Below are positions 5,169 through 28,322 of a DNA stretch of 64,000 nucleotides, piece after piece. The notes beneath the pieces were generated by a model, which was not told the DNA's origin, searched no databases, and saw nothing but the letters and a program-made list of their open reading frames with translations. How positions within the stretch are numbered: position 1 is the first letter of the stretch; each line of letters begins with the position of its first letter. The position numbers and the translations under genes were made by a program. The DNA is from Clostridia bacterium (GTDB taxonomy: Bacteria > Bacillota > Peptococcia > DRI-13 > SM3-B62), in assembly GCA_018433675.1 (NCBI GenBank), contig JAHDQS010000002.1:1-64000 (forward strand). Reading direction: 5' to 3'.

Positions 5169-5429
5169 TTGGAAAGAGGTATGCGGCGGACGATGACCGG
5201 TACTGTTGTCAGCGATAAGATGGAAAAGACGGTAGTGGTTGCTGTTGACAGCTATATAAAACATTCGGTTTACAATAAGGTTATGAAACGTACAAAAAAG
5301 TACAAGGCGCATGATGGAGAAAATGCTTGCAAAACAGGGGATAAGGTAAGAATCATGGAGACTCGTCCCGTTAGTAAAGAAAAGTGCTGGAGAGTCGTCC
5401 AGATCATAGAGAAAGCGCCTTTGCTATAA
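5169..5429 (+). CDS. rpsQ: 30S ribosomal protein S17
   Basis: This 86-aa OB-fold protein has the S17 motifs [15 protein letters not shown] and [20 protein letters not shown]. The start is TTG 5169, placed 7-8 bases after AAAGGAGG; an ATG four codons downstream is less well spaced. S17 is an early 16S rRNA binder. It is followed by rplN. Confidence 0.95.
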
Positions 5430-5445
5430 AAAGGAGGTACATGGC

Positions 5446-5814
5446 GTGATTCAACAAGAAACAAAGTTAAAGGTCGCCGATAATACCGGTGCCAAAAGGT
5501 TGTTGTGTATTCGTCCTTTAGGGGGTTCGTATAGACGCTACGCTTCAGTGGGTGATGTTATTGTGGCGACGGTGAAAGAAGCTACACCCGGTGGCGTTGT
5601 AAAAAAAGGCGAGGTTGTAAGAGCTGTTGTTGTGCGTACTAAAGATGCCGTTAGAAGAAATGACGGTTCATATATACGCTTCGACGAAAACGCTGCGGTT
5701 ATTATCAAAGAGGACAAAAGCCCTAGGGGTACGAGGATATTTGGTCCTGTTGCCCGCGAGTTGAGGGAAAGGAATTTCGTCAAAATACTCTCTTTAGCGC
5801 CTGAGGTGCTTTAA
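5446..5814 (+). CDS. rplN: 50S ribosomal protein L14
   Basis: This 122-aa protein has the L14 motifs [17 protein letters not shown] and [17 protein letters not shown]. It contacts 16S rRNA in an intersubunit bridge. It starts at GTG 5446 behind AAAGGAGGT. Full length, in the standard spc operon position. Confidence 0.97.
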
Positions 5815-5848
5815 GCAGTGATGCTATTCTACCACTGGAGGTGAGTTT

Positions 5849-6175
5849 ATGAAGGCAAAGGTTCATGTCAAAAAAGGAGACATGGTTCAGGTAATATCCG
5901 GTAAAGACGCGGGGAAAAAAGGGAAGATACTCAATGTTGATCCAGGCAAAGGGAAGATTATCATTGAAGGGGTCAACATCATGAAGCGGCACACTAGGGC
6001 TTCGAATAAAAATCCGCAGGGTGGAATTATTGAGCAGGAAGCTGCGATCGATAGCTCGAACGCGATGATTTATTGTTCAAAGTGTAAAGGGCCGGTTCGC
6101 ATAAATAAAAAGCTTTTGGCCGATGGTCAAAAAATCAGGGTTTGTAATAAGTGCGGCGAAGAATTTGACAAGTAA
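5849..6175 (+). CDS. rplX: 50S ribosomal protein L24 with CxxC pairs
   Basis: This 108-aa protein has an N-terminal KOW motif ([18 protein letters not shown]) and the L24 motif [13 protein letters not shown]. The C-terminal part has two cysteine pairs, CSKC and CNKC, which resemble a zinc ribbon and occur in many but not all bacterial L24 proteins. L24 nucleates 50S assembly. ATG 5849 follows GGAGGTGAG. Confidence 0.97.
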
Positions 6176-6201
6176 ACCCGGTCGGAAGGGAGGTTGAAGG
6201 T

Positions 6202-6744
6202 GTGACACGCTTAAAAGAGAAATACACAAACGAAGTGTCTCCTGCAATGAGACAAAAATTTAGTTATAAAAATGTCATGGAAGTACCTAAACTTGCAAAA
6301 GTGGTGATTAACATTGGGATGGGTGAAGCGGTGCAAAATCCCAAAGCCCTTGATGGGGCAGTTAATGATCTGCAGATTATTACCGGACAGAAGCCGGTTA
6401 TAACCAAGGCGAAAAACTCAATAGCCGCTTTTAAGATCCGTGCCGGAATGCCGATTGGCGTTAAAGTCACTCTGAGAAACGAGAAGATGTATGAGTTTGT
6501 TGACAAACTCTTAAACATTGCTTTGCCCAGATTACGGGATTTTAGAGGAGTGCCGACAAACGCCTTTGACGGTCGGGGTAATTACACCTTAGGCATCAAG
6601 GAACAACTAATATTCCCTGAAATAGAGTATGATAAGGTTGAAAAAATTCGGGGGATGGATATTGTTTTCGTTACAACAGCCAGGACAGATGAAGAGGCAA
6701 AGGAGCTGCTGGGATTAATGGGCATGCCTTTTGCCGATAGATAA
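6202..6744 (+). CDS. rplE: 50S ribosomal protein L5
   Basis: This 180-aa protein has the L5 signature [20 protein letters not shown] and the C-terminal [18 protein letters not shown]. It binds 5S rRNA and contacts P-site tRNA. It starts at GTG 6202 after GGGAGG. Length is normal. Confidence 0.97.
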
Positions 6745-6775
6745 CCGCCCATTTTAATGATAAGGAGGGAGCTAT

Positions 6776-6961
6776 GTGGCAAAAACGTCCCTAAAGAACA
6801 AGCAGAGCAGGACACCTAAGTTTCAAGTAAGGGCTTATAATAGATGTAAAATATGTGGTCGTCCCCATGCTTACATGCGGAAGTTCGGCATGTGCCGTAT
6901 TTGTTTCCGCGAGCTGGCTTATGAAGGTCAAATTCCTGGCGTTACAAAGGCCAGTTGGTAA
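6776..6961 (+). CDS. rpsN: 30S ribosomal protein S14, zinc-binding type
   Basis: This 61-aa short S14 (type Z) has four zinc-ligand cysteines in [10 protein letters not shown]...CRIC. The short zinc form is standard in Firmicutes; a zinc-free longer paralogue (rpsN2) is not in this window. It starts at GTG 6776 behind AAGGAGGGAG. Confidence 0.96.
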
Positions 6962-6985
6962 GGTTGGACTTAAGGAAGGGGGTCA

Positions 6986-7390
6986 ATGAAGATGGTTATG
7001 ACTGATCCAATTGCTGATTTTTTGACAAGAATTCGGAATGCTAATTCTGTAAACCATGATAAGGTAGAGATTCCGGCTTCCAACGTAAAAAAAACAATGG
7101 CGGGAATCCTCAAAACAGAGGGTTTCATTAAGGATTTTGAATACATTGATGATGGGAAGCAGGGTGTGTTAAGACTGTACCTGAAGTATGGTCCGGATAA
7201 AAAGAAGGTTATTACCGGATTGAAGCGCATCAGCAAACCGGGATTGCGCGTTTATGTTCAAAAAGATCAAATTCCGCGGGTATTGGGGGGGTTAGGTATT
7301 GCCCTTATCTCCACATCCCAGGGAATAATGACAGACAAGGAAGCGAGAAAGCGTCGTCTGGGCGGAGAAGTAGTCTGCTATGTTTGGTAA
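6986..7390 (+). CDS. rpsH: 30S ribosomal protein S8
   Basis: This 134-aa protein has the S8 motif [16 protein letters not shown] and the C-terminal [32 protein letters not shown]8 organises the 16S central domain and in E. coli represses the spc operon. ATG 6986 follows AAGGGGGTC; a second ATG two codons on (6992) is an alternative start. Confidence 0.97.
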
Positions 7391-7449
7391 GATGTAATAC
7401 TAGTAAAAGTGGTTTGAGCAATTCGAAGAACTGCGCGGGAGGTGTGAAA

Positions 7450-7995
7450 ATGTCGAGAATTGGGAAATTACCCGTCGCGATTCCTGCGGGTGTTGATGTT
7501 AAGCTTAATGGGGCAAACATAAACATTAAAGGACCGAAGGGGACTTTAAGCAGGGAGCTGCCAAAAGATATTACCGTTAACATAGAAGACGGAAACATCA
7601 TATTTGCGCGCCCCAGCGATCAGAAACAGCACAGATCGTTGCACGGCTTGACCAGAACGCTGGTAGCGAACATGGTCGAAGGTGTGACTAAGGGATTTGA
7701 AAAAAATCTGGAGCTGGTTGGTGTTGGCTACAGGGCGGCGAAGCAAGGTAACAAGCTTGTACTGACCGTAGGCTATTCACACCCGGTGGAAATTGAACCG
7801 GGGCAAGGATTGGAGATTGAAGTGCCTGCACCAAACAAGATTATTGTCCGGGGTGCGAGCAAGGAGCAGGTCGGGCAGCTGGCAGCTGACATTCGCGCTG
7901 TGCGTGAGCCGGAACCCTACAAGGGTAAAGGTATACGCTATGCGGACGAACATGTCCGCAGAAAAGTAGGCAAGGCTGGTGCGAAAAAAGGCTAA
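7450..7995 (+). CDS. rplF: 50S ribosomal protein L6
   Basis: This 181-aa protein opens [15 protein letters not shown] and contains both L6 repeats. The C-terminal motif [28 protein letters not shown] is intact (given here as key residues over positions 150-181). ATG 7450 follows GGGAGGTG. An upstream in-frame extension starts inside rpsH and lacks homology. Confidence 0.96.
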
Positions 7996-8037
7996 CATGA
8001 TATGAGCTTTAACTCGCAGCGGAAAGGAGTGAAGCAT

Positions 8038-20589: not shown

Positions 20590-20925
20590 ATGGGGCAAGC
20601 TACTTTTGACGATTTTTTGAAACTGGATATTAGAGTAGGCGAAGTAATAAAAGCAGATTTTTTTGCCAAGGCAAAACATCCGGCTTTTAAGCTTTGGGTC
20701 GATTTTGGAGAAGAGATAGGCACAAAAAAGTCAAGCGCTCAAATTACTGAACTTTATTCAAGAGAAGATCTGGTCGGCAAACAGGTTTTAGGAGTTGTGA
20801 ATTTTCCACCGAGACAAGTTGCTGATTTTATGTCGGAGGTGTTAATTTTAGGGATATATTCACAAAAAGGAGTTGTTCTGATTAAGCCTGAACAGTCTGT
20901 TAGAAAGGGAGATAAATTAGGATAG
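20590..20925 (+). CDS. csaA: CsaA-like tRNA-binding-domain protein
   Basis: This 111-aa protein is a stand-alone OB-fold tRNA-binding domain with FDDFLKLDIRVGEVIKADFFAKAKHPAFKL and VVNFPPRQVADFMSEVLILG. It matches the CsaA group, described as a chaperone in Bacillus, and resembles C-terminal domains of methionyl-tRNA synthetase and YtpR. ATG 20590 follows AAAGGAGAGG. Its substrate here is unknown. A terminator separates it from rpsI. Confidence 0.85.
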   Translation: MGQATFDDFLKLDIRVGEVIKADFFAKAKHPAFKLWVDFGEEIGTKKSSAQITELYSREDLVGKQVLGVVNFPPRQVADFMSEVLILGIYSQKGVVLIKPEQSVRKGDKLG

Positions 20926-21934: not shown

Positions 21935-22387
21935 ATGCAGATTCCGTTGTTAGGTTGGCTATTACAAGGGATACCTGAAGCATTTGCGATAACATATTTA
22001 GTAGTTAATTTGGGATTAAAGCAGGTTCCCTGGAGAACGGTTTTAAAAATTGGAACAATCATGTCTATAGCTGCTTATTTAATCCGCTTACTGCCGTTTA
22101 TGCCCGGGGTACATAGCGTGATTCTGATATTTGTCATGTCGCTAGTTCTTACGAATGTGACCTCTTTTAGTTTGATTAAGTCCATTGTTTGCAGCTCTGT
22201 CGGCATTATTACCCTGATACTATGCGAGTTTATTTTTAATGGCTTATTAATAGTATCAGGTATAGTAACCGTTGAACAAATTAATAACAGTGTGGCAATT
22301 TGGGTCATTACCGGTTATCCCCAGGTCATCATGCTCTTTATTCTTGGGGTAGTGGTAAATAAAAAGGGTATAGTTTTAATGGAGTAA
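21935..22387 (+). CDS. Small integral membrane protein next to agrB
   Basis: This 150-aa protein is almost wholly hydrophobic, with four to five membrane segments and no soluble domain. Its opening (PLLGWLLQGIPEAFAITYLVV) resembles the membrane sensor part of AgrC-like or Spo0B-associated kinases, but no kinase domain follows. ATG 21935 has GGGGGGATG upstream. It lies 27 bases before agrB, so it probably belongs to the peptide signalling unit. It may be a receptor fragment or a peptide export helper; I do not recognise a named family. Confidence 0.7.
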   Translation: MQIPLLGWLLQGIPEAFAITYLVVNLGLKQVPWRTVLKIGTIMSIAAYLIRLLPFMPGVHSVILIFVMSLVLTNVTSFSLIKSIVCSSVGIITLILCEFIFNGLLIVSGIVTVEQINNSVAIWVITGYPQVIMLFILGVVVNKKGIVLME

Positions 22388-22414
22388 GCGACTATAATCT
22401 AATGGAGAAGAGAC

Positions 22415-22999
22415 ATGCCGTATTCATCTTTTAGTACACGGATCAGCGGTTATTTAGCCCGTGAGCTTAAATTAGACAATGAAAAAAAAGAGATATTGGC
22501 ATATGCCCTTGAAAATGTTATTTTCACAACAGGCGGCTTTATTTTAATCATGGCTGTCGGTTATATTTTAGGGGTGCCTAAAGAGACTTTTTGTGCGGCA
22601 ATTGCCGGTGCAATCCTCAGGAAGTTCAGCGGAGGTGCCCATAGCAAAACTGCTCTCAGGTGTATGCTGGTTGGGGCTTTGGCTTATCCGCCGGTTGCCT
22701 TTCTGGCCAGTTGCTTTTTTGCGTTGCTAGGTGGTACAAGTTCCTATTATGCCATTTTGGCTTTTTGTTCAGTAGGCTCTTTATTAATCGTGGCGCGGTA
22801 TGCGCCGATTGATTCTAAGGCGAAGCCTATTGTGGCGGAGAGCTTCAGAAGAAGACTAAGATATGGTTCGATAGTTACGGTATTGCTGTTCATAGCTATT
22901 GCGTGGTTAAACATGACAAACAGTATAGGCAGTTCACTAATTAGTGGTATTGTTATCCAGTCAATAAGTCTATTGCCATTTCAAAATGCAAGGAGGTGA
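22415..22999 (+). CDS. agrB: AgrB-like autoinducer peptide-processing protease
   Basis: This 194-aa membrane protein has the AgrB signature RKFSGGAHSKTALRC. H76 and C83 match the catalytic pair of AgrB cysteine endopeptidases, which cut and cyclise AgrD precursors. Four to six hydrophobic segments follow. The gene overlaps the agrD ribosome binding site (AGGAGGTG at 22991-22998) at its 3' end. Family assignment is firm; the substrate is inferred from the adjacent peptide gene. Confidence 0.92.
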   Translation: MPYSSFSTRISGYLARELKLDNEKKEILAYALENVIFTTGGFILIMAVGYILGVPKETFCAAIAGAILRKFSGGAHSKTALRCMLVGALAYPPVAFLASCFFALLGGTSSYYAILAFCSVGSLLIVARYAPIDSKAKPIVAESFRRRLRYGSIVTVLLFIAIAWLNMTNSIGSSLISGIVIQSISLLPFQNARR

Positions 23000-23004
23000 A
23001 TTTT

Positions 23005-23136
23005 ATGTCCAGAGCAAAATACATTTTGTTGACAATGGTATCAACTTTACTTTTCTTTATCGCCACCACCAGTTCAGCTTTTGCTTGCTTTTGTTGGAGG
23101 CACCAACCGGAGACACCGAAAAGTCTTATCAGGTAA
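23005..23136 (+). CDS. agrD: AgrD-like cyclic autoinducer peptide precursor
   Basis: This 43-aa ORF starts at ATG 23005, 6 bases after AGGAGGTG. It has a hydrophobic amphipathic leader (residues 5-26), then ACFCWR and the charged tail HQPETPKSLIR. The tail matches the conserved (D/Q)PExP(K/E)xL motif of AgrD precursors. By analogy with Staphylococcus AgrD, C28 would form a thiolactone with the carboxyl of R32, giving the ring CFCWR. The second cysteine (C30) inside the ring is unusual. It follows agrB directly, as in other agr loci. Confidence 0.88.
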   Translation: MSRAKYILLTMVSTLLFFIATTSSAFACFCWRHQPETPKSLIR

Positions 23137-23140
23137 AACG

Positions 23141-23175
23141 TGAGGTGGTTCTTTATTCCACCTCATTGTAGTTTT
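23141..23175 (+). terminator. Hairpin terminator or attenuator after agrD
   Basis: TGAGGTGG (23141-23148) pairs perfectly with CCACCTCA (23158-23165) around a 9-base loop, followed by TTGTAGTTTT. It would at least partly separate agrBD from the downstream GGDEF/HD-GYP gene. The T tract is interrupted, so read-through is plausible. Confidence 0.6.
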
Positions 23176-23189
23176 AGGGGAGAATTGCA

Positions 23190-24830
23190 GTGAAAAATGT
23201 TGATAAATGCGAAAATCATAAAAAAGAAGAATACATAGTTTTCCTGCAGGCCATATTTCTTCTCTTGGCAGGTATTTTGATGACCAGGGTGTGGAAGACC
23301 AATGGCGGTTTTTTCTATGAGTTATATCGCAATGTGGCATTTTTATTGTTGCCTATCGTTGGGCTCATATCGGTAAAGATTTTTGCCGCAGCTAAAAAGG
23401 GATGGGCCGAAAAAAAGGTTAACGATTATGTAAACATAATTTACCTTATGGTTACTGTACCGTTGTTGATTTTTGAAGAAGAAAGTTTTTTTAAAGTTCT
23501 TTTATTGTTGCCGGTGATGGTGGCTGCTTTACAATACGGAGCAAGATATGGGTTTAAGTGGGCACTATTTTCATCGCTTGGATTAATCGTTATTACAGTA
23601 TTCCAGGGAATGCCCCAAATAGAGGTGTTTGTACTCATATTGGGTGTTATCTGGATGTTTGCTTGGCTTTTAGGGAGAATGTCGGAAGCGGAGATAGAAG
23701 TCAGAGAGAAACTTAGGATCCAGGCTAACGTGGACGGAATGACGGGGCTTCTCAATCATCGCAGCTTTTATGTTTATTTGGAAGAGTGTTTTAATGAAGC
23801 TGTGGAGAAAAGTAAAAGTCTGTCCTTAATAATGTTGGATGTGGATTTTTTTAAATATTACAATGATACATATGGGCACAGAAAAGGAGACGAAGTATTA
23901 ATAGAAATCGCTCGGCTGATAAAGGAAGCGGTAGAGGGTAAAGGCAAATGTTTTCGCTACGGCGGAGACGAGTTTGCTGTTCTTATTCCGGGAGGAAAAG
24001 GACAGGAAGCTTATACGATAGGTAGGACTATTTGCGAAAGTATTGGGGCGGCCTCTTTTGAAGGGTTAAATATTCTTCCGGGAGGAAAACTCAGTGTTTC
24101 AGTGGGGGTTGCCGTTTATCCCGAACATACCAACAAGAAGGAAACGCTGTTGGAAAAGGCTGATGAAGCCCTTTATAGAGCAAAATATACAAATAACAGC
24201 AAGGTAGAGATGTATTATTCGGTTTTCGAAGAAATCAGCAGTTTACTGGAGGGTAAGGAAAAAGATGTTCTAAATTCAATGCGTACTTTGCTGATGTTTA
24301 TTAATGCTAAGGACCATTATACCTATGGACATTCAGAGAGGGTAATGAATTACGCTATGCAAATCGGCAGGAAAACGGCTCTGTGGGAATGGGAAGTACA
24401 AGAATTAATGGCAGGTGCTCTTCTGCATGACGTGGGAAAGGTTGAGCTTTCTCGGGAGGTTTTGAATAAATCCGATAGTTTAACTGGAGAGGAATGGGAA
24501 GCAATAAAACAGCATCCGGTTTGGGGTGCCGATATCATTAGGCCGATTTCTACGTTTAAGAATGTTGTAGATATAATACTGTACCATCATGAAAATTACG
24601 ATGGTTCCGGTTATCCTGACGGGCTTAAGGGTAAGGATATACCCTTGGGGGCCAGAATACTGAGGGTAGCCGATAGTTTCGACGCCATGACGACAAACAG
24701 GCCATATAAGAAAGGGCTGTCTGTCGACAAGGCTGCGGATGAAATCAAGTCGCTCTCCCATGTTTTATATGATCCTGAAGTGGTGGAGAACTTTTTGGGA
24801 TATCTCAAGGAAACAGGGATTTTAGTCTAG
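23190..24830 (+). CDS. Membrane GGDEF/HD-GYP cyclic-di-GMP enzyme
   Basis: This 546-aa protein has about six N-terminal membrane helices (residues 10-165), a GGDEF domain with intact GGDEF motif at 258-262, and a C-terminal HD-GYP domain with HD at 413-414 and GYP at 474-476. It could therefore both make (GGDEF) and hydrolyse (HD-GYP) cyclic di-GMP. No RxxD inhibitory site is visible five residues before GGDEF. It follows agrBD in the place where agrC/agrA would be expected, so the membrane part may sense a signal. GTG 23190 follows GGGGAGAA. Confidence 0.9.
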   Translation: MKNVDKCENHKKEEYIVFLQAIFLLLAGILMTRVWKTNGGFFYELYRNVAFLLLPIVGLISVKIFAAAKKGWAEKKVNDYVNIIYLMVTVPLLIFEEESFFKVLLLLPVMVAALQYGARYGFKWALFSSLGLIVITVFQGMPQIEVFVLILGVIWMFAWLLGRMSEAEIEVREKLRIQANVDGMTGLLNHRSFYVYLEECFNEAVEKSKSLSLIMLDVDFFKYYNDTYGHRKGDEVLIEIARLIKEAVEGKGKCFRYGGDEFAVLIPGGKGQEAYTIGRTICESIGAASFEGLNILPGGKLSVSVGVAVYPEHTNKKETLLEKADEALYRAKYTNNSKVEMYYSVFEEISSLLEGKEKDVLNSMRTLLMFINAKDHYTYGHSERVMNYAMQIGRKTALWEWEVQELMAGALLHDVGKVELSREVLNKSDSLTGEEWEAIKQHPVWGADIIRPISTFKNVVDIILYHHENYDGSGYPDGLKGKDIPLGARILRVADSFDAMTTNRPYKKGLSVDKAADEIKSLSHVLYDPEVVENFLGYLKETGILV

Positions 24831-27278: not shown

Positions 27279-28322
27279 ATGCGTGCTATTGAAGTTGAGA
27301 GTTTAAAAGAAGGCATGAGGCTTGCTAGAACCATTTTTGATGACAGTGGGCGTACTCTGTTGAATTCCGGTACTAAACTCACGGAACGATACATTAAAAG
27401 GCTCATAGATTTAGGTATACCATTTATCTACGTTGAAGACGAAATCATCGGTCCAATTGAATGCGAGGATATCATCGACGATAGGGTAAGGCTGCAGACG
27501 ATAAAAGCTTTGAAGAAGGTTGTTGAAACAGCCAAGATGCACGAAGAAATTGACCTTCTTCCGGTCAGCGGAATGGTCAACACGATACTTGACGATTTAA
27601 AAGGCGTCCCCAATATGTTGATGCAGTTGTTGGACATCAGGACCAGCAATACGTACGTATATAATCATTCGGTGGCTGTATGCGTTTTAAGTATAATGGC
27701 CGGGATGTCATTGGAACTGGACGACTTAAAGATTAAGCTGCTTGGTATGGGTGCTCTTTTACATGATATCGGCAAATCGCTCAGCGAGGGTCCGGAGCAC
27801 ACGATTCATGGTTTTGAGATACTGCGTAACACCAAAGCACTGAATGTAGTTGTTGCTCATGTTGCTTATCAGCACCACGAGCGCTATGACGGCGAAGGGT
27901 TTCCCCGTAAGCTGAAGGGAGAGGATATTCATCTGTTTGGGGCGATTACCGGTATCGCAAACCTGTACGATAATCTTGTCTCTCATCCGGATGGGGATAA
28001 ACGGCTTTACCCTTATCAAGCCTTAGAGACTGTTGTTGCTGAGAGCGGACGCGGTTTTCATCCTGAGGTTGTCAAAGCCTTTTGCCGCAATATTGCACCT
28101 TATCCGGTCGGAACTGCGGTTAAATTAAATAACGGGGCGGTAGGAGTAGTGGTATCGGTGCCGAGGAGTTTTAGCACCCGACCTGTGATAAAATTAATTT
28201 CCAGTGAGGTTGGGATACTAATGAAGGATTTTCCTGAAATAGATTTACTGAAAGAGAAAACTTTATTCATAAACGAAATACTAAGCGAAAAAGACCGTCG
28301 GGATATCGCAGTTTTAAAGTAA
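27279..28322 (+). CDS. HD-GYP domain protein (variant GFP)
   Basis: This 347-aa soluble protein has an N-terminal region (about 1-120) like those before HD-GYP domains, then an HD-GYP domain with LLHDIGKS (HD) and HHERYDGEGFP, where the GYP motif is GFP. HD-GYP proteins hydrolyse cyclic di-GMP; the Y-to-F change is tolerated in some members, so activity is likely but not certain. A C-terminal segment of about 70 residues follows. It is the second c-di-GMP-related gene within 4 kb. Confidence 0.88.
   Translation: MRAIEVESLKEGMRLARTIFDDSGRTLLNSGTKLTERYIKRLIDLGIPFIYVEDEIIGPIECEDIIDDRVRLQTIKALKKVVETAKMHEEIDLLPVSGMVNTILDDLKGVPNMLMQLLDIRTSNTYVYNHSVAVCVLSIMAGMSLELDDLKIKLLGMGALLHDIGKSLSEGPEHTIHGFEILRNTKALNVVVAHVAYQHHERYDGEGFPRKLKGEDIHLFGAITGIANLYDNLVSHPDGDKRLYPYQALETVVAESGRGFHPEVVKAFCRNIAPYPVGTAVKLNNGAVGVVVSVPRSFSTRPVIKLISSEVGILMKDFPEIDLLKEKTLFINEILSEKDRRDIAVLK

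Follow-up and report, generated by a model that had tools for sequence, protein, structure and literature searches.

The agr system of the Staphylococcus aureus type (AgrBDCA) depends on the sensor AgrC, which has six helices in S. aureus and recognises the autoinducing peptide (AIP) on its outer loops (PMC10482373). The agr genes of C. thermocellum and C. autoethanogenum are reported to lack a cognate receptor or regulator (PMC5322536, PMC8748961), and in C. difficile agr affects c-di-GMP enzymes at the transcript level via AgrA (PMC3754575). The operon described here lies in the window, the whole stretch of 64,000 nucleotides of DNA that was analysed, and, unlike in C. difficile, its c-di-GMP enzyme is encoded inside the agr operon. 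It shares with AgrBDCA an AgrB with invariant histidine and cysteine, an AgrD with a predicted five-residue cyclic core and a conserved proline-rich tail, and a candidate receptor family that is common to the AgrC-type kinases of clostridia. In contrast to AgrBDCA, it holds neither an AgrC kinase nor AgrA, its sensor domain is a separate protein, and its output is a GGDEF/HD-GYP enzyme.

In the RpfC/RpfG system of Xanthomonas, the quorum signal DSF controls an HD-GYP phosphodiesterase through a phosphorelay in which a hybrid kinase acts on a REC-HD-GYP regulator. The window operon would likewise direct a quorum signal, as proposed here, to an HD-GYP phosphodiesterase, but contains no phosphorelay. 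In the RpfR/BDSF system of Burkholderia and Cronobacter, the signal acts directly on a protein with c-di-GMP synthesis and hydrolysis domains and triggers its phosphodiesterase (PMC6361424). The proposed signal would similarly act on one protein carrying both kinds of domain. RpfR differs in its fatty-acid signal, its cytoplasmic PAS receptor, and its GGDEF-EAL domains, and it shows no homology to the window operon in signal synthesis or receptor; by domain content, the window enzyme is not a PAS-GGDEF-EAL single chain with an RpfF partner. It resembles membrane-sensor GGDEF/HD-GYP proteins in its six-helix N-terminus, GGDEF domain, and HD-GYP domain, and is unlike the others in that agrBD and a small membrane partner accompany its sensor domain. 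A literature search for agr together with GGDEF, HD-GYP, or c-di-GMP, covering few subscription papers and preprints so that an earlier notice is possible, returned no paper on such an operon. From its sequence, the operon appears to be a new form of the agr system, its receptor being split and its output c-di-GMP.

Organisation of the operon

ORF calling identifies four genes at 21935-24830, all on the + strand: a gene for a five-helix membrane protein (5TM), agrB, agrD, and a GGDEF/HD-GYP gene. They are separated by gaps of 27, 5, and 53 bp in that order and bounded by cwlD and an AMMECR1 gene. The features are as follows.

21935..22387, + strand: 5TM, small five-helix membrane protein, proposed AIP receptor subunit (ORF, 150 aa)
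22415..22999, + strand: AgrB peptidase/cyclase (194 aa; PF04647, E=1.2e-36; H76/C83)
23005..23136, + strand: AgrD precursor MSRAKYILLTMVSTLLFFIATTSSAFACFCWRHQPETPKSLIR, ATG start (43 aa; TIGR04223, 2.3e-8)
23140..23166, + strand: intercistronic hairpin GTGAGGTGG-loop-CCACCTCAT (significant stem by folding)
23190..24830, + strand: GGDEF/HD-GYP gene, GTG start (ORF, 546 aa)
23190..23717, + strand: NTERM, six-helix N-terminal membrane domain, proposed transducer (six TM helices; output swap with kinases)
23724..24197, + strand: predicted GGDEF diguanylate cyclase domain (PF00990, 1e-39; GGDEF signature intact)
24294..24782, + strand: predicted HD-GYP phosphodiesterase domain (PF13487 (HD_5), 5e-41; HD and HHExxDGxGYP intact)

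The earlier note had described AgrB and AgrD as flanked by a small five-helix membrane protein and a membrane GGDEF/HD-GYP protein with both active motifs intact, and this layout is confirmed, with GGDEF, HDVGK, and HHENYDGSGYP all found. Its further claim that the locus has no histidine kinase or response regulator also holds: ORF and domain annotation agree that the stretch from cwlD to the AMMECR1 gene encodes neither an AgrC histidine kinase nor an AgrA LytTR response regulator.

AgrB and AgrD both score above the curated thresholds of PF04647 and TIGR04223, respectively, AgrD with 34.0 bits against a cut-off of 19. AgrB has both catalytic residues of the AgrB-family peptidases as invariant H76 and C83, with a seven-residue spacing like that of the catalytic pair in S. 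aureus AgrB. AgrD adjoins agrB and combines a predicted cyclic core with the conserved tail; its ring is predicted to consist of the five residues CFCWR. Across loci, the ring positions are variable and the tail (QPxxPKSL and similar) is conserved.

Consensus promoter counts are close to chance. An Rfam scan of the window returned tRNA only, so no known c-di-GMP riboswitch acts directly on the operon. Nearby, a 111-aa gene at 20590-20925, by eye a CsaA-type tRNA-binding protein, falls in an alignment gap in the sister genome, which lacks it at this position. A separate soluble HD domain protein is encoded at 27279-28322, a few genes downstream, and is kept in most order-level relatives.

Recurrence of the gene order

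A set of 398 genomes, sampled evenly across the phylum, was searched with profiles of 5TM (A2), the six-helix domain (A1), and AgrB, which gave matches in at least 156, in 75, and in at least 166 genomes, respectively; the breadth of the 5TM family rules out that 5TM is a spurious ORF. A first scan of genome contigs had given one locus only. The closest named relative is the MAG 'Clostridia bacterium isolate SV3-B7.1'. About 60 loci were retrieved, either from the best-scoring end of the ranked six-helix-domain list or as fused 5TM ORFs; their ORFs were called mechanically and annotated by local profiles.

Among these best-scoring loci, agrB lies within 3 kb of 59 of the 67 sampled proteins with the six-helix domain, and it adjoins 49 of the 51 that have a c-di-GMP output. 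The full order of one to three 5TM genes, agrB, agrD, and the GGDEF/HD-GYP gene is present in approximately 44/51 c-di-GMP-type loci, and in order- and class-level relatives it recurs with one to three 5TM copies ahead of agrB. A same-strand 5TM match is absent nearby in four of the 51 and agrB in two; some of these exceptional loci sit at contig ends. The earlier note had proposed checking whether the four-gene order recurs in related bacteria, and it is found far outside one family: the agrB-linked c-di-GMP-type loci span 29 family-level groups, counted from genome tables. The gene arrangement is thus a conserved system, and conservation in 29 families rules out chance adjacency of an abundant GGDEF gene. 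In one relative (L037 8239-11527, G002), the enzyme gene is broken within its membrane domain by an opposite-strand 499-aa ORF that is insertion-element-like.

In a tree of 72 AgrBs, the operons with c-di-GMP enzymes or six-helix kinases fall on one side (SH-aLRT 85) and those with fused or split AgrC on the other, a split with moderate support and several long branches. The c-di-GMP label requires 7 changes on this tree versus 22 in shuffles.

The hairpin that the earlier note placed after agrD exists (23140-23166). A significant stem is present there in 44/51 loci, its sequence changing, compared with 7/56 control stretches inside agrB. It is not called a terminator because the T-tails are mostly poor; stabilisation of the agrD mRNA and partial attenuation both fit, and the suggested role in setting the ratio of signal to enzyme may apply.

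Candidate receptor, transducer, and output

Family-averaged hydropathy gives five TM segments in 5TM, and its AlphaFold2 model contains five long helices and one short one (pLDDT 96). Residues P14, E15, R51, G58, H60, and E98 are nearly invariant in the family. No Pfam or NCBIfam model matches 5TM above cut-off; a SafA-like connector was considered and set aside, its Pfam match (E 0.1) being sub-threshold and having no other support. A PDB sequence search returned weak TrkH matches only (E 0.007), and a fold search against the PDB gave nothing below E 1, so 5TM is not assigned to a named fold.

In ten retrieved loci (L153-L162), 5TM is the N-terminal domain of a kinase in a single ORF; all seven fusions tested by Pfam carry SPOB_a and HATPase domains (HPK10-like, AgrC type), and most fusion loci adjoin agrB and LytTR genes. 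Split agr loci, of which the window's own genome has one, place a lone 5TM ahead of a kinase whose N-terminal part has only two TM helices. Because the family occurs both fused to AgrC-type kinases and alone before two-helix kinases, 5TM may be regarded as the front of AgrC in the form of a detachable unit. The sequence family is common to the N-termini of AgrC-type SPOB_a/HATPase kinases beside agrB, as expected of a clostridial-type AgrC sensor, and since it serves as the N-terminal domain of such kinases in ordinary agr loci, 5TM is probably the AIP receptor. The gene is also multiplied 2-5 times beside a single output.

Comparison with the sister genome singles out the same gene. Nucleotide identity is 84-97% in ungapped 150-bp windows around 5TM but only 78-79% within the 5TM gene itself; the remaining drops are gaps, where sequence is missing. 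At synonymous sites 5TM is likewise the outlier (dS 0.93; other compared genes 0.20-0.45), with an ordinary dN/dS, and the AgrD rings differ at one position (CFCWR/CWCWR). This pattern points to replacement of the 5TM gene via recombination, or to sorting of tandem copies. Strong divergence confined to 5TM fits the expectation for a specificity receptor.

The enzyme begins with six TM helices, the last of which runs on towards the GGDEF domain and reaches it in the AlphaFold2 model (pLDDT 87). According to Pfam annotation, the same six-helix domain also heads PAS-HisKA-HATPase kinases and hybrid kinases. In five loci (L120, L124, L151, L128, and L142), a six-helix kinase replaces the enzyme directly after 5TM-agrB-agrD, and as kinases thereby swap for GGDEF/HD-GYP in the same slot, the six-helix domain is probably a transducer. 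In L081 and L145, 5TM stands beside a six-helix kinase without agrBD. The output swaps, together with these pairs, form the pattern expected from a receptor-transducer pair with an exchangeable output. The earlier note had offered either the small membrane protein or the N-terminus of the enzyme as the peptide receptor; both candidates gain support, the former as the sensor domain of fused AgrC-type kinases and the latter through its exchange of outputs. In our reading they are a pair, receptor subunit and transducer, rather than alternatives, and the two would be in contact.

The L145 pair (5212-8022), on the single contig of genome G134, consists of 5TM and a six-helix hybrid kinase, with no AgrB for this genome among the matches listed; a second six-helix hybrid kinase stands alone (L172 6063). 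These kinases could possibly be eavesdropping receptors or respond to another ligand.

The output domains have the GG(D/E)EF signature and the HD/GYP metal and catalytic motifs of c-di-GMP turnover enzymes. Among 45 aligned orthologues, the HD.GK and GYP motifs are intact in all (45/45 each), whereas 33 have a canonical GGDEF signature and 12 a degenerate one. Hydrolysis is accordingly the constant output. No RxxD I-site is seen in the GGDEF domain of the window. By sequence, the nearest HD-GYP of solved structure cleaves 3'3'-cGAMP, so the c-di-GMP specificity of the enzyme is a prediction, and a whole-enzyme fold search gave only GGDEF and HD-GYP chains among the matches listed.

Proposed signalling route and its alternatives

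We consider it likely that the four genes form an agr-type quorum-sensing operon that is self-contained, having a split receptor and acting on c-di-GMP. AgrB, judging by homology, would process AgrD to a cyclic five-residue autoinducing peptide, which would be read at the membrane by 5TM docked on the six-helix domain of the enzyme. Peptide binding would shift this domain together with the long helix that runs into GGDEF, altering c-di-GMP turnover. The main regulated step would most likely be hydrolysis, since HD-GYP is always intact whereas about a quarter of the orthologues have a degenerate GGDEF; BDSF acts comparably on RpfR. High peptide would then most likely lower c-di-GMP. This branch would need neither AgrC nor AgrA.

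The window's genome has c-di-GMP effectors, as it encodes four c-di-GMP-I riboswitches and one PilZ protein. Tandem c-di-GMP-I riboswitches precede the gene of a secreted protein whose sequence contains a HELGH zinc-protease motif (L163 213-1260, G000:C55), and another riboswitch precedes SipW-like signal peptidase and surface-protein genes (L165, G000:C44); the genes at both sites are likely c-di-GMP outputs. On contig C50 (L004 7465-8391, G000), agrD is followed by an agrB with a broken reading frame (frameshift or assembly error), and a c-di-GMP-I riboswitch lies ~140 bp downstream of this pair, with no same-strand ORF called directly after it.

A second agr locus, on contig C5 of the same genome (L005 7063-12092, G000), carries five tandem 5TM genes, a two-helix GHKL kinase, a LytTR regulator, AgrB, and AgrD, so that a single kinase has five candidate receptors. 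A similar array, divided between two contigs (L083, L036), is present in the sister genome. The search for an agrC/agrA pair elsewhere, which the earlier note had proposed, thus has a divided outcome: a complete agrC/A-type locus exists, yet it has its own AgrD. Because the genome holds this complete system, cross-talk with the window operon is possible.

An alternative would go further, with the C5 system sensing the window peptide through its LytTR regulator, GHKL kinase, and five 5TM copies and the GGDEF/HD-GYP gene being only a co-transcribed target that adjusts c-di-GMP. An agrA mutation in C. difficile R20291 does change c-di-GMP gene transcripts (PMC3754575). We nevertheless regard this as unlikely: the C5 agrD (MKKITAFLVPFLAVIFVTVGSMSSYSCLCACSYYEPKKPAGLA) has a different core from the window AgrD, and over 29 families the operon keeps a 5TM and a transmembrane output of its own. 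In the complete, single-contig genome G065, the c-di-GMP operon contains the only AgrB and the only 5TM among the matches listed, although two LytTR proteins are present. In G079 (99% complete), which has one AgrB among the matches listed and an HD-GYP reading frame split near its end, no LytTR or AgrA-type regulator is detected. Genome G237, without LytTR, was dropped as a clean case lacking AgrC, since a split 5TM and GHKL kinase lie elsewhere in it.

The six-helix domain alone might instead be the receptor, with 5TM an accessory, for example for AgrB or AgrD export. The position of 5TM ahead of agrB in most operons would suit such a role, as would the c-di-GMP genes of L049, L110, and L138, which have agrB and no full-length 5TM recognised nearby. 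Fusion of 5TM to AgrC-type kinases, its persistence with the transducer in L081 and L145 without agrBD, and its 2-5 copies beside a single output, as expected of receptors, make this explanation improbable as well.

In a third alternative, which is very unlikely, the enzyme would respond to an unrelated membrane cue and govern the timing of agrBD or the cell's use of it, the operon reflecting co-expression and not ligand sensing. The six-helix domain does occur without any agr genes in L113, L130, L139, and L144, and relatives weakly resemble the general sensor domains DUF4118, MASE6, and PilS-TM, but 59/67 sampled six-helix proteins adjoin agrB and the output-swapped versions hold the same operon position.

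Returning to the split receptor, we lean, with less assurance than for the operon itself, towards a general scheme for clostridial agr in which exchangeable 5TM AIP-binding subunits (1-5 in tandem, swapped by recombination) would work with a transducer of the kinase, hybrid-kinase, or c-di-GMP-enzyme type; in the widespread c-di-GMP branch, the peptide would directly set the second-messenger level without a phosphorelay. On this reading, the receptor half of AgrC should prove to be a unit that is independent and exchangeable, and the compact four-gene cassette is suited to measuring peptide sensing across the membrane. Orphan agrBD genes that have no agrCA partner have been puzzling, and many such loci now obtain a testable receptor and output. 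If the reading is true, we know of no earlier case in which a cyclic-peptide quorum system connects directly to c-di-GMP; through this second messenger, the sensing of cell density could then act directly on lifestyle.
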